A stretch of 64,000 nt of DNA, from assembly GCF_015709515.1 (NCBI RefSeq), contig NZ_JADNQZ010000058.1, positions 372,001 through 436,000 on the forward strand. The letters are read 5' to 3'. The notes under the pieces were generated by a model. That model saw only the letters and a program-made list of their open reading frames with translations. It made no database searches and was not told the origin of the DNA. Source of the DNA: Methylocystis sp. H62 (GTDB taxonomy: Bacteria > Pseudomonadota > Alphaproteobacteria > Rhizobiales > Beijerinckiaceae). The first letter of the stretch is position 1. Every line of letters begins with the position of its first letter. Positions 1-3,869 of the stretch are shown piece by piece. The translations under genes and the position numbers were made by a program.

Positions 1-806
1 TTCATGCCGAGCGAGATGCGGTGCGTCTCGTGATTGATCTTGATGATCTTCACCTTGACGGTCTGACCGATGGTCAGCACCTCGGACGGATGATTGACGC
101 GCCGCCATGCGATGTCGGTGACATGCAGCAGGCCGTCGATGCCGCCGAGATCCACGAAGGCGCCGTAGTCGGTGATATTCTTCACGACGCCGTCGATCAC
201 CTGTCCCTCTTCGAGGTTGGCGACGATCTCGTGGCGCTGCTCGGCGCGGCTCTCTTCGAGCACGGTGCGACGCGAGACGACGATATTGCCGCGCCGGCGG
301 TCCATCTTCAGGATGTGGAACGGCTGCGGCACGTTCATCAACGGGCCGACGTCGCGGATCGGTCGGATGTCGACCTGGCTGCGCGGCAGAAAGGCCACGG
401 CGCCGTCGAGGTCGACGGTGAAGCCGCCCTTGACCTGATTGAAGATGACGCCCTCGACCTTTTCATTGGTCTCGAAGGCCTTTTCGAGCTTGACCCAGCT
501 CTCTTCGCGGCGCGCCTTGTCGCGCGAAATGACGGCTTCGCCGAGCGCATTCTCGACGCGCTCCAGGTAGACTTCGACCTCTTCGCCTACTTGCGGGGCG
601 GGGTCGCGGCCATAGCCGGTGAATTCCTTGATGGCGACGCGGCCCTCGGTCTTGAGGCCAATGTCGATGACGGCGACATCCTTTTCGATGGCGACGACGC
701 GGCCCTTGATGACGGAACCTTCGAAGGCCTCGTTCTGGCCATAGCTTTCATCAAGCAGAGCGGCGAAATCTTCGCGCGTAGGCGCGCGATCGGTCGTGGC
801 GGACAT
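1..806 (-). CDS. rpsA: 30S ribosomal protein S1 (5' part, gene runs off the window)
   Basis: Ribosomal protein S1 binds mRNA on the 30S subunit and helps initiate translation of structured or weak-SD messages. About 268 N-terminal residues are visible, beginning MSATTDRAPTREDF. Three OB-fold S1 repeats can be read: the first from about residue 28 (GSVIKGRVVAIEKD), the second near 115 (VEGVIFNQVKGGFTVDL), and the third near 200 with the very typical ITDYGAFVDLGGIDGLLHV stretch. The ATG at 804-806 follows an AGGAGA Shine-Dalgarno. The C-terminal repeats lie beyond base 1, so the gene is truncated only by the window edge. In other alphaproteobacteria cmk usually lies upstream of rpsA; here the upstream neighbour is a divergent peptide operon. 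Confidence 0.97.
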   Translation of the reverse strand, partial: MSATTDRAPTREDFAALLDESYGQNEAFEGSVIKGRVVAIEKDVAVIDIGLKTEGRVAIKEFTGYGRDPAPQVGEEVEVYLERVENALGEAVISRDKARREESWVKLEKAFETNEKVEGVIFNQVKGGFTVDLDGAVAFLPRSQVDIRPIRDVGPLMNVPQPFHILKMDRRRGNIVVSRRTVLEESRAEQRHEIVANLEEGQVIDGVVKNITDYGAFVDLGGIDGLLHVTDIAWRRVNHPSEVLTIGQTVKVKIIKINHETHRISLGM

Positions 807-913
807 ATGTTCTCCTGAGAGCCCAGAGAGGGCGGCGCCGGCAAGGGTTAGCGTTGCAGATCGGCTTTCGGTATCGGACGTCCCCCGCGGCTAAAACGCG
901 AGGCTGGACGAAA

Positions 914-930
914 AGTTCGCTAAGCGAACT
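914..930. promoter_or_regulatory. Perfect inverted repeat AGTTCGCT-A-AGCGAACT
   Basis: An 8-bp perfect palindrome with a one-base centre, about 110 bp upstream of the rpsA start codon. Its tight symmetry suggests a dimeric regulator site rather than an RNA hairpin. No known operator consensus was recognised. Confidence 0.3.
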
Positions 931-1280
931 GCCGGCGCGGCCCGATGTCGAAAACCAAAGCGAATGCCCCGGCTTGGTTACCGAGGCGGGGCCTATCTAC
1001 CAGCGGCGCGCCGCCGTCGCAAGCGCGCCAAAAAGAAAACAGTCGGCGCCGCCTGCCCAAAGTCATGATATTGCACTGCAATAAGTTAACAATATACTGT
1101 TTTAATATAATAATCATAACTCAAAAAGGCTGATTTGTTGGCGAATTTCTCCCTAGCGGAATCGCAGCCGCACGCATAGTCTGCGCCGACTGCCAGGCTT
1201 CGGCGCGCCGCAGAACGTCAGCGGCGGCGAATTCGCCGATCGACAGGGGCGCCGGGACTTGGCCGAAGACCAGTGAACTT

Positions 1281-1308
1281 CGCCCTCGCCGTCCAGATGG
1301 CGAGGGCG
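1281..1308 (+). promoter_or_regulatory. 10-bp hairpin in the leader of the Cys/His-rich peptide gene
   Basis: CGCCCTCGCC and GGCGAGGGCG form a perfect 10-bp stem around an 8-nt loop (gtccagat), 44 bp upstream of the peptide ATG and ahead of the GAGGAG Shine-Dalgarno at 1341-1346. There is no U-tract, so it is not a classical terminator. It could be a 5'-UTR stability or regulatory element. That it is transcribed is inferred. Confidence 0.4.
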
Positions 1309-1352
1309 TCGACTTCCCGTCGTTGCGATAGGGATATAAAGAGGAGAAAGAG

Positions 1353-1583
1353 ATGAAGACGAATATTATTTCAGGTTCGGCTCTCGCCGCCGCCGCCGTC
1401 GCCCTTGCTCTGAGCGGCGCATCGGTTGCGCCCGCCTACGCGCATTCCGCGAAGTCGACCCACGCGAAGACTCATTGCGGCGCCAAGGGAAGCTGCCGCC
1501 ACATGGCCAAATGCCACCACAAGGCGCAGTGCCACCATCACAAGGGCCGCTGCAACATGAAGAGCCGCTGCCACAGCAAGTAA
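1353..1583 (+). CDS. Secreted Cys/His-rich small protein, probable MNIO-modified RiPP precursor (bufferin-like)
   Basis: A 76-residue protein with an N-terminal signal peptide (hydrophobic core about residues 8-26, likely cleavage after AYA at 28-30). The mature part is dominated by Lys, His and six Cys at 42, 48, 54, 60, 67 and 73, giving C-x5-C spacing three times, then C-x6-C and C-x5-C. About ten His residues surround them. Start supported by GAGGAG at 1341-1346. It is followed by a DUF692 (MNIO) enzyme gene and a DUF2063 gene, the context of bufferin precursors, which are Cys-containing, exported, post-translationally modified copper-binding peptides. The sequence does not read like the classic DUF2282 BufA1 family. 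Modification, copper binding and periplasmic location are inferences from context and composition. Confidence 0.8.
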   Translation: MKTNIISGSALAAAAVALALSGASVAPAYAHSAKSTHAKTHCGAKGSCRHMAKCHHKAQCHHHKGRCNMKSRCHSK

Positions 1584-1592
1584 TCGCCTTGT

Positions 1593-1621
1593 GCGGGGGC
1601 GGCGGCTACAGCCGTCCCCGC
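1593..1621 (+). promoter_or_regulatory. Strong GC hairpin between precursor gene and MNIO gene
   Basis: GCGGGG at 1593-1598 pairs with CCCCGC at 1616-1621, and GCGGCT at 1602-1607 pairs with AGCCGT (one G-U wobble), with a 3-nt bulge. It starts 9 nt after the peptide stop codon and lacks a U-run. RiPP operons often carry such an element between precursor and enzyme genes; it could stabilise the precursor mRNA or attenuate read-through. That role is inferred. Confidence 0.45.
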
Positions 1622-1672
1622 CACGCCGATGCGGCTCCGGCATGAGCGGCGATGCCTGAGAGGGAAGACGTC

Positions 1673-2518
1673 ATGGAAAAGCCCCCGCCGCTTGGCTACG
1701 GCTTGGGCCTGCGGCCGATCTATTATGAAGAGATCCTGTCGTCGCGCCCGCCGATCGACTGGTTCGAAATCATTTCTGAAAACTACATGCTCGCCGGCGG
1801 GCGGCCGCTGGCGATGCTGGATCGGATACGCGCCGATTATCCCGTCGTCATGCATGGCGTCTCGATGTCGCTCGCCTCAACCGATCCGCTCAATTTCGAC
1901 TATTTGCGGCAGTTGAAGGCGCTCGCTGAACGCATTCAGCCGGCATGGGTTTCAGATCACGTCGCCTGGACAGGCGTTCATGGCGTGACGCTCCACGATC
2001 TGCTGCCCATTCCCTATACGCGCGAGTCGCTTGCGCATATTGTCGAGCGCATTCAGCGGGTGCAGGATTTTCTCAAGCGCCGGCTGGTTGTTGAAAACGC
2101 CTCGACCTACGTGTCCTTTGTCGATTCCGAGATGAGCGAACACGAGTTCGTTCGCGAAATGGCCGAGCGCGCCGACTGCCTGTTGCTGCTCGACGTCAAC
2201 AATGTTTTCGTTTCTAGCTTCAACCACGGCTTCGATCCGGTCGCTTTCATCGATGGCGTTCCGGCCGATCGCGTCGTGCAATTTCACATGGCCGGTCATA
2301 CCAATAATGAGACTCATCGCGTCGACACGCACGATCAGCCGGTCTGCGATGAAGTCTGGGCGCTCTACGAGCACGCGCGTCGGCGCTGCGGCGACGTCTC
2401 CGCCATGATCGAGCGCGATGACAACTATCCGCCGCTCGCGGAGCTTTTGGACGAACTCCAGAATATGCGCGATATCGACGCCCGCATCTCAAAAGAGCGA
2501 GCGCTCAGCGCAGCATGA
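1673..2518 (+). CDS. bufB: DUF692/UPF0276 multinuclear non-heme iron oxidase (MNIO, MbnB/BufB-like)
   Basis: 281-residue TIM-barrel enzyme of the DUF692 family. Known members (MbnB, TglH, BufB) use a multi-iron centre and O2 to rewrite Cys or nearby residues in RiPP precursors. Family motifs visible: FEIISENYM (E36), MHGVSMSL (H61), WVSDHVAW (D95, H96), VVENASTY (E141, N142), LLLDVNNVFV (D174, N177), QFHMAGH (H205, H209), DTHDQ (H220, D221) and MIERDDN (E247). These are the expected iron ligands and neighbours; assigning each to a metal needs a model. The ATG at 1673 is chosen over 1652 because GAGAGGGA ends 7 nt before it. It lies 89 bp after the Cys/His-rich peptide gene and overlaps the next gene by 4 bp, so the three form one operon. 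Confidence 0.93.
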   Translation: MEKPPPLGYGLGLRPIYYEEILSSRPPIDWFEIISENYMLAGGRPLAMLDRIRADYPVVMHGVSMSLASTDPLNFDYLRQLKALAERIQPAWVSDHVAWTGVHGVTLHDLLPIPYTRESLAHIVERIQRVQDFLKRRLVVENASTYVSFVDSEMSEHEFVREMAERADCLLLLDVNNVFVSSFNHGFDPVAFIDGVPADRVVQFHMAGHTNNETHRVDTHDQPVCDEVWALYEHARRRCGDVSAMIERDDNYPPLAELLDELQNMRDIDARISKERALSAA

Positions 2519-3357
2519 AGCTCGCAGATTTTCAGTCTCTGTTTCAGCAGCGTGTGCTGGCCGGCTCTGGAGAGGCGGACGAGCCTCTCCTGAAAAAATT
2601 GCGTCCGTCGCCGCGCGGCGCCGCGCCGGAGACGCTGCTGGACGTCTATCAGACGGGCTACCGCATACGGCTGGCGGACTTTGTTTCGCAGGATCACCCG
2701 GGGCTTCGCGCGATTCTCGGAGACGAGGCGTTTGACGCGCTGGTCGACGACTACATCGACCAATGTCCGTCGCGCGATCCGAACGCGCGCTGGTTTACGA
2801 CCGGACTGCCGGACTTCATGCGCGAAAACGCGCGCTGGCGCGACGATGCTGCGGCCGTCTCCATGGCGCTGTTTGAGCGCGCCATGGTCGACGCCTTCGA
2901 CACAGCCGACGAAACGCCGTTGACGGTGCAGGCGCTGGCGGGATTTGCGCCCGACGATTGGGCGCGGCTCGCCTTCGAATTCGATCCGAGCCTGACGCTG
3001 CTCGAGCTCGTCGCCGGCACGATCGAGGCTTACGGCGCGGCGATCAGCGAGGAGGCGCCGGCGAAAGTCGATAAGCCCGCGGCGGGCGAACACATCGAAC
3101 ATGCCGCCGTATGGCGCGTCGATGATGAATCCGCCTACCGCCAGCTCGAGCCCGACGAATATGTCGCGCTTTCCGAAGCGCGCGCCGGGCACGCCTTCGG
3201 GGACATCTGTCAGATGGCCGCCTTTCAGCAGGCTGGCGAGATTGCGCCAGAGCGGCTGGCGCAATCTTTGTCGAGCTGGTTCGAGGACGGCATGATTATC
3301 GGCGTGCGCGTCCGCGAGGACGACGATCAAGCTTCGAACACGCCCTCAAGCGCGTAG
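2515..3357 (+). CDS. bufC: DUF2063 RiPP-modification partner protein (BufC/MbnC-like)
   Basis: 280 residues. The N-terminal ~95 residues look like the DUF2063 domain that accompanies DUF692 oxidases (FQSLFQQRVL near the start, then LLDVYQTGYRIRLADFVSQDHPGL and a FLR/AILGDEAFD-like helix region). The C-terminal half is less conserved and ends near residue 280 after a segment rich in acidic residues. Known partners of this type (MbnC, BufC) bind the MNIO enzyme and help recruit the precursor. ATGA overlap with the MNIO gene implies translational coupling. The last 31 bp overlap the 3' end of the convergent Fae-like gene. No DoxX-type bufD follows, so the locus looks like a minimal A-B-C version. 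Confidence 0.88.
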   Translation: MKLADFQSLFQQRVLAGSGEADEPLLKKLRPSPRGAAPETLLDVYQTGYRIRLADFVSQDHPGLRAILGDEAFDALVDDYIDQCPSRDPNARWFTTGLPDFMRENARWRDDAAAVSMALFERAMVDAFDTADETPLTVQALAGFAPDDWARLAFEFDPSLTLLELVAGTIEAYGAAISEEAPAKVDKPAAGEHIEHAAVWRVDDESAYRQLEPDEYVALSEARAGHAFGDICQMAAFQQAGEIAPERLAQSLSSWFEDGMIIGVRVREDDDQASNTPSSA

Positions 3358-3869
3358 TGCTGGACGCTCTTGCGGTTGGCGATGAGTTCGTCGGCCGTCG
3401 GCTCGCCCTTCATGGCGCGAGAGATCGCGAGCTTCGTCGCTTCGTAATTGGTGCGATAGAGATCTTTCTTGTCGAGCTCCGCATGGGTGGCGCACCGCGG
3501 ATCGAGCCAGACCATGATGATCATGCAGAGCTCGTTGAGCTGATCCTTGGGGAGAATCCCATCGGCGACGCAGTCGACGATGGCGTCGCCGGTCGCCGCT
3601 TGCACGACGCCGCCGAGAAGCTCGACGTAATCTTCCGATTTGACCGTCATTTTGGTGGTCATCATCGTCGCCGGCCGCACCTGCTGGTTGAGGTCGCGGA
3701 TGACGAACATGCGCGGATGGCCGGCGACTTGGCCCGCCATGCTGGCGAAGGCGTGCCCGACCGGGCCCTTGACGTTGCCGATCATCACTTCCGGCATGGC
3801 GTCGGTATATTGTCCGTCCGCGGCCAGAACCGTCGCTTCGCCCGTCGCTAGCCAGATATGCTCGGTCAT
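3327..3869 (-). CDS. Formaldehyde-activating enzyme homologue (Fae-like), catalytic His position substituted
   Basis: 180 residues, the normal Fae length. Canonical Fae condenses formaldehyde with tetrahydromethanopterin in methylotrophs. Family features seen: the MIGNVKGPVGHAFA segment, VRPATMMTTKMTV, and the very conserved NYEATKLAISRAMKGEPT near the C-terminus. In canonical Fae the catalytic His sits in AHIDLIIG; the aligned segment here is AMPEVMIG, placing Met25 at that position. This suggests a Fae2/Fae3-type paralogue with a different, perhaps binding or regulatory, role. The ATG at 3867-3869 is preceded by AGAGGAA. The gene converges on bufC with a 31-bp tail overlap. The alignment was done by eye. 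Confidence 0.85.
   Translation of the reverse strand: MTEHIWLATGEATVLAADGQYTDAMPEVMIGNVKGPVGHAFASMAGQVAGHPRMFVIRDLNQQVRPATMMTTKMTVKSEDYVELLGGVVQAATGDAIVDCVADGILPKDQLNELCMIIMVWLDPRCATHAELDKKDLYRTNYEATKLAISRAMKGEPTADELIANRKSVQHYALEGVFEA

Follow-up and report, generated by a model that had tools for sequence, protein, structure and literature searches.

Methylocystis sp. H62 carries, in the 64,000-nucleotide stretch analysed here (the window; contig NZ_JADNQZ010000058.1, positions 372,001 to 436,000 of the forward strand), a compact operon encoding a Cys- and His-rich precursor peptide, an MNIO (DUF692) enzyme and a DUF2063 partner. It is read here, with a probability of about 0.7, as a divergent bufferin (captophorin-type) operon bufA-bufB-bufC, which would go back to a BufA2 system of the Methylocystis/Methylosinus lineage and would make an exported, copper-buffering peptide. 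The precursor is probably a His-rich, lineage-specific offshoot of the BufA2 bufferins and not an unrelated class, because the enzyme passes the BufB model, lies in phylogenetic trees within the BufBs that serve BufA2 precursors, and is paired with a BufA2-like leader. The original prediction for this operon had raised the possibility of a new class of peptide; this stands insofar as the core lies outside the BufA2 model, and falls insofar as enzyme and leader tie the peptide to known bufferins.

The His-type family, as these precursors are called below, amounts to a natural experiment in the evolution of MNIO substrates, with close BufBs facing cores of 5, 6, 8 or 9 Cys under a constant leader, while their BufA2-serving cousins meet a Lys after Cys instead. 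It makes testable whether the signal peptide is a recognition element and what determines the choice of Cys. It also probably provides a second copper peptide, an exported one, in organisms whose methanobactin and whose copper supply to particulate methane monooxygenase (pMMO) are under study.

The MNIO enzyme and its DUF2063 partner

Three genes follow one another on the plus strand, namely the 76-residue precursor gene (1353-1583, from the open reading frame (ORF) call), the BufB-type MNIO gene (1652-2518, an ORF of 288 residues) and the gene of the DUF2063 partner (2515-3357, 280 residues; PME-type 1 or BufC-like). The MNIO stop and the DUF2063 start share the ATGA at 2515-2518, the ATG of the DUF2063 gene lying inside it, and both ORFs and Pfam matches confirm the packing and overlap that had first been described. 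Reading of the sequence also gives an alternative MNIO start, the ATG at 1673 with GAGAGGGAAG directly 5′ of it, which may be the true start more readily than 1652.

The enzyme matches the Pfam family MbnB_TglH_ChrH (PF05114) with 368.3 bits (cut-off 25) and the NCBIfam model MNIO_BufB (NF050167) with 375.5 bits (cut-off 310), and stays under the cut-offs of the models for HvfB (274.6 of 360), ApyH (97.2 of 400), MbnB (80.3 of 325) and ChrH (52.4 of 600). Its ligand and active-site positions were placed by alignment with 3bww and MbnB (7dz9). Eleven of them (H68, H103, E148, N149, D181, N184, H212, D225, H227, E254 and D256) are invariant over 36 His-type and 32 BufA2-type MNIOs, so that the metal-ligand residues expected of a BufB are present, as originally predicted; which of the aligned positions bind metal is in part taken here as an assumption. 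In the related HvfB, an Asn, an Asp and a His are predicted site-3 ligands (PMC13419390). A twelfth position, D257, comes directly after the catalytic Asp; all 36 of the 36 His-type MNIOs have Asp there, as do 29 of the 32 BufA2-type ones. The residue at this place is Phe in MNIOs acting on Lys-Cys (FonB) and Asp in those acting on Cys-Lys, as in BufA2 systems, where Asp251 of BufB2 has a modelled contact with the Lys that follows Cys (PMC12668002).

The DUF2063 partner matches PF09836 with 63.4 bits over residues 6-102 (cut-off 27.2), scores 21.9 bits with the NCBIfam model HvfC, under its cut-off of 142, and found no match among sequences of the Protein Data Bank. The window thus holds the combination that marks captophorins, an MNIO with a DUF2063 (PME-type 1) protein and a Cys-rich precursor. 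The characterised MNIO-PME1 cases all install a 5-thiooxazole, and their products generally bind copper (PMC12668002). That the window enzyme should install a different group, such as an oxazolone-thioamide or another rearrangement, on account of its different substrate is improbable: the core is unlike the characterised substrates as these are described (PMC12452194, PMC12668002) and MNIOs outside the bufferin cluster do yield other products (PMC12452194), but this MNIO passes the BufB equivalog model and sits within BufB, where the precedent of the MNIO-PME1 pairs applies.

Six named records have an MNIO 97-98% identical to the enzyme, five of them Methylocystis and one Methylocystaceae, and BufBs within the genus are about 80-98% identical to it. 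In a plasmid collection, MNIO matches at E ≤1e-60 came from 45 records, every one below 60% identity, and hence no close relative is among them.

The precursor peptide and its constraints

The window peptide contains 6 Cys, at spacings of 5-5-5-6-5, and 10 His in its 76 residues. Residues 1-30 make up a BufA2-like signal-peptide leader and residues 31-76 the His-rich core CGAKGSCRHMAKCHHKAQCHHHKGRCNMKSRC, with the His runs CHHK and CHHHKG. By eye the leader, with its basic n-region and hydrophobic stretch, closes in an AxA-type end (APAYA, followed by H), and it was read as a Sec signal on these features. The residues following the six Cys are, in order, Gly, Arg, His, His, Asn and His.

No Pfam or NCBIfam family is matched above its cut-off, and the DUF2282 signature is missing up to E = 1, which upholds the earlier view that the precursor belongs neither to BufA1/DUF2282 nor to methanobactin. 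The search of the peptide against bufferin models, proposed with that view as a check, gave 13.8 bits for BufA2 (NF050166; cut-off 60).

The precursor is nonetheless a real gene family in which the six Cys are invariant. Selection was assessed on the 21 distinct coding sequences with the window Cys spacing, out of 33 His-type entries distinct in coding or upstream sequence. When these are compared in pairs, the six Cys codons differ 186 times synonymously and never non-synonymously; at two of these positions the codon does not change at all. The ratio of non-synonymous to synonymous differences per site (pN/pS) is 0.20 for the whole peptide, 0.14 for the leader and 0.23 for the core; split by residue, the core gives 0 at Cys, 0.06 at His and 0.39 elsewhere.

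Probable kinship with the BufA2 bufferins

Three BufA2-type peptides of these genera, two of them orphans in the window's genome, score 95.7, 100.4 and 86.7 bits with the BufA2 model. Of four His-type relatives of the window peptide, two score 14.3 and 18.0 bits and two give no score; a small upstream peptide reaches 15.0 bits and the BufA1 of the window's genome 21.1 bits. The six-Cys pattern 5-5-6-5-12/13, found in 97 of 103 distinct BufA2-type precursors, is absent from the window peptide as such. The spacing of its C2-C6 (5-5-6-5) is nevertheless that of BufA2 C1-C5, with one additional Cys on the N-terminal side and the distal Cys gone, an agreement of spacings that is suggestive. Comparison of whole precursors with BufA2 by hhalign gives E 1.9e-13, mostly from the leader.

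When scored against the window leader, 90% of 103 BufA2 leaders exceed all of 60 generic signal peptides drawn from the same DNA as a control; the top generic peptide scores 35, the BufA1 of the same genome 25 and its two orphan BufA2s 83 and 61, and some BufA2 scores are lowered because the chosen start codon cut those leaders. By this test the window leader is BufA2-like.

The cores differ in composition. His makes up 18.7% of mature residues in the His type versus 1.3% in the BufA2 type, and the residue after a core Cys is Lys in 418 of 624 BufA2-type cases, whereas in the His type (n = 178) it is His 74, Gly 27, Asn 27, Arg 17 and Lys 14 times. In the window type of core, His has probably most often taken the place of the Lys after Cys, so that the residue used for recognition may also serve as a metal ligand; the C-terminal Cys has probably been lost.

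MNIOs with His-type precursors nest among those serving BufA2 in each of the two trees (30 of 103 rows in one tree; 36 of 70 in the other, from which one short row was dropped, in which identical rows were merged, and where two rows are unlabelled). It follows that enzyme and leader would have persisted through one or two rounds of core rebuilding or replacement. On both best trees the His label has to change twice, and the His type forms a single group in 0% of 200 bootstrap trees for the better-sampled 70-row alignment and in 13% for the 103-row one; a one-clade constraint is not rejected by the approximately unbiased (AU) test (p 0.20). The His-type core may have arisen once, with a reversion, or twice.

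Diversity, distribution and linkage to MNIO genes

Among 27 distinct His-type precursors, 17 have the window spacing, five have nine Cys, one has eight, one has five, and three are six-Cys peptides of a Methylosinus type, further examples of which were found by searching the second genus. Tandem precursors, one with nine Cys and one with six, occur at two loci. The five-Cys precursor (L042) is without the distal CHHK module and is possibly a degenerating copy. Several loci (L042, L043, L044, L126, L128-L132, L137 and L138, the last two being of BufA2 type) carry, upstream of the MNIO, one more small peptide whose leader is similar and whose 2-3 Cys stand in CSAK or CPAK contexts. These exported-type peptides are possibly further substrates of the same MNIO.

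In 28 of 39 genomes of the genus the family profile has one or more strong matches (at least 99 bits). All 30 strong precursor matches there adjoin an MNIO gene at a distance of 60-367 bases, and the case of the same peptides lying away from any DUF692 gene, named at the outset as one that would refute the idea, was not found among these genomes. In a sample of the family, 29 of 298 genomes have strong matches (at least 88 bits); 20 belong to genus g1 and nine to a second genus, g42, in which 9 of 9 lie next to an MNIO. The two carrier genera would be Methylocystis and Methylosinus, g42 being taken as Methylosinus because some of its precursors are identical to those in Methylosinus records. 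Two more family genomes score 45 and 41 bits, and the loci examined there (L184 and L009) hold ordinary BufA2. Scans of 297 genomes from the order and 398 from the phylum gave strong matches only in G000 and G017, both of the window's genus; the order, family and phylum scans scored no more than 18, 18 and 13 first-look candidates, respectively, in each genome, so that weak members may be missed.

This linkage bears on the idea that the peptide stays unmodified and acts like a metallothionein, the MNIO pair working elsewhere, for instance on orphan BufA2 precursors. Two such genes with similar leaders exist in the window's genome (4.54 Mb) without an MNIO of their own in the DNA examined and could serve as substrates: one (L154/L021, on contig C51) lies about 2 kb from the BufA1-type MNIO, and the other (L025, C58:10.5 kb; 86.7 bits) has no MNIO within the 3.2 kb examined. 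The idea is very unlikely all the same, for every one of the 30 strong matches adjoins this type of MNIO, and leader and Cys are strongly constrained.

Four MNIOs are present in this genome in all. Besides that of the window, there is a BufA1/DUF2282-like operon with DoxX-like and sigma-factor-like genes, recognised by eye (L002, C51:38.9 kb), a membrane-protein-linked MNIO and a methanobactin-type locus. At the membrane-protein locus (L003, C58:535 kb), the MNIO follows a protein with a Ser/Gly/Cys-rich tail that appears TIGR04222-like by eye, and precedes a short protein, possibly a PME-type-2 partner. The methanobactin-type locus (L004, C56:173 kb) has an MbnB of 445.4 bits (cut-off 325) and, by eye, a small MbnA-like ORF at 1303-1395 with a CGATCSATNG core. 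Weak profile matches also occur 1-3 kb from the equivalent of the BufA1-type MNIO in a number of genomes of the genus.

The distribution invites another role for the same enzymes and modification, namely supply or storage, with periplasmic copper held for pMMO and not detoxified. The His type is confined to the two genera, 27 of its 29 genomes carry PF04744, a pMMO subunit family, and the methanobactin-type MbnB just mentioned would provide for copper uptake in the same organism. This link to methanotrophy is suggestive yet confounded by ancestry, because the distribution tracks two related genera. Moreover, 13 of the 40 genomes with PF04744 are without the His type (all nine of a third genus, g40, and four others), PF04744 was not detected in two His-type genomes, and known bufferins guard against excess copper (PMC12452194). 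A supply role is accordingly held to be unlikely.

Proposed function

In the preferred reading of a divergent bufferin, the DUF2063 partner would recognise the BufA2-like leader, which would double as a Sec signal peptide; preliminary results reported for bufferins make the signal peptide part of the recognition sequence (PMC12452194). The MNIO would then oxidise core Cys in the cytoplasm, most likely to 5-thiooxazole with loss of 4 H per Cys, and modification would precede Sec export and cleavage after APAYA. The mature peptide would buffer periplasmic copper through its thiooxazole groups together with the side chains of nearby His, and the His that follows three of the six Cys in the window could be at once a stand-in for the Lys contact and an imidazole ligand.

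Several observations weigh against this scheme. The low scores with the BufA2 model say nothing for kinship, because the BufA1 of the same genome scores above the window peptide. The mature cores give no significant hhalign match with BufA2 (probability 4%, P 0.0095), so that the core could be new instead of remodelled. The Cys-Lys pocket is retained in His-type MNIOs although Lys now seldom follows Cys. Substrates in which a charged residue comes after Cys were not processed by FonBC, an enzyme of another subgroup (PMC12668002), whence some window Cys may stay unmodified. The AlphaFold2 model of the window precursor is of low confidence (mean predicted local distance difference test score, pLDDT, 49) and uninformative, as is that of a BufA2 precursor (pLDDT 53). 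Finally, no copper-related gene was recognised next to the operon, and copper-regulator sites were not the object of a dedicated search.

The abundance of His, 19% of mature cores, also raises the prospect of a functional operon whose peptide chiefly binds a metal other than copper (zinc, nickel, cobalt, mercury or gold), with His doing much of the binding. MerC-bufferin fusions and gold-induced bufferin operons have been noted (PMC12452194). Against this, genes for zinc, nickel or mercury were recognised neither beside the operon in the window nor, by eye, among the neighbours of its relatives, where no family search was made, and a metal other than copper seems quite unlikely.

A bolder extension of the copper reading, for which the odds are poor, would see here a mixed-ligand class that arose in Methylocystis and Methylosinus, with thiooxazole beside His and with variable cores (5-9 Cys, sometimes in tandem, same leader) swapped under a kept leader and enzyme, and would make of it a periplasmic copper store feeding pMMO, the counterpart to methanobactin uptake.

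As to earlier reports, hundreds of ORFs with a signal peptide and 1-18 Cys precede MNIO genes and still await sorting (PMC12452194), and Supplementary Table S2 of that paper may include members of the His-type family. A literature search found, among the papers it covered, none with both Methylocystis and MNIO as whole words and, by title and the start of the abstract, none describing the His-type peptide among the matches listed.

Upstream region and neighbouring genes

A candidate operator dyad, TATTGC-N3-GCAATA, lies at 1069-1083 (plus strand), just upstream of a sigma-70-like promoter candidate, TTAACA-N17-AATAAT, at 1086-1114 (plus strand; consensus match only). The arms of the dyad are found in 17 of 33 upstream regions, with no mismatch in 13 and one in 4 and with a varying spacer, all 17 belonging to the window's clade, and the other 16 show 2-3 mismatches or none of the dyad. 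The exact dyad occurs once in the whole genome, in the window; 11 genome sites have at most one mismatch, versus 1 for a reversed control pattern, and 2 window sites have at most two, versus 0.9 expected. The promoter motif recurs in 10 of the 33 regions, the window's included, and 3 promoter-like sites were seen in the region versus 0.7 expected. A wider operator regulon was considered and set aside, since the neighbours of the 10 other near-sites, read by eye, form no recognisable copper set and some of these sites fall inside predicted ORFs. The dyad may also belong to the divergent gene upstream on the opposite strand, which we take to be rpsA.

Directly after the operon stands a converging Fae-type gene (PF08714), in the place where a DoxX gene might follow. 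The original remark that no DoxX-type bufD comes downstream is therefore true; it is not telling, as a crude single-query test over all the DNA examined at each locus gave DoxX matches at only 3 of the 16 BufA2 loci listed and at none of the 18 His-type ones. An Rfam scan of 800-3700 gave 3 matches (E 0.28-0.67), all under their gathering scores, and a PHROGs scan only 2 (E 0.11 and 0.36). Farther on, the ORF at 3952-4407 matches the VHL beta domain (PF01847, 39.1 bits, cut-off 21), which seemed unusual for a bacterium, and by eye it is probably exported from an internal start.

Comparison with known systems

The CxxxxC precursor family (PMC12452194) is set apart by motif only, the window spacings being 5 or 6 and never 4. 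Methanobactin shares with the window the MNIO superfamily, the organism and the modification of Cys, predicted in the window; it differs in that the window MNIO scores 80.3 bits against the MbnB cut-off of 325, works with a DUF2063 partner and has a signal-peptide-like precursor, while a separate mbn-type locus exists. The Buf1/DUF2282 bufferins have the same type of operon, and a look-alike is present in the window's genome, but the window precursor has no DUF2282 match and six conserved Cys instead of four, and its leader is not similar, the BufA1 leader of this genome scoring 25 against it. With the captophorins (fontiphorin, oxazolin/HvfA and gonophorin), which are ribosomally synthesised and post-translationally modified peptides bearing 5-thiooxazole, the window system shares the MNIO, the DUF2063 protein and the exported Cys-rich precursor; its modification is a predicted one, and it is without EGKCG repeats and below the cut-offs of the HvfB and HvfC models. 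It thus stands outside oxazolin/Buf_EGKCG, no EGKCG occurring in the sequence and HvfB reaching 274.6 of 360 bits. The nearest likeness is to BufA2 (Buf_6/12Cys) with BufB2 and BufC2, in the gene order bufA-bufB-bufC, the BufB model passed, the leader, the C2-C6 spacing and D257. From these the window system departs by its core (13.8 versus 60 bits), which has an extra N-terminal Cys and no C-terminal one, by His in place of Lys as the commonest residue after Cys in the His type, and by relatives with 5, 8 or 9 Cys.

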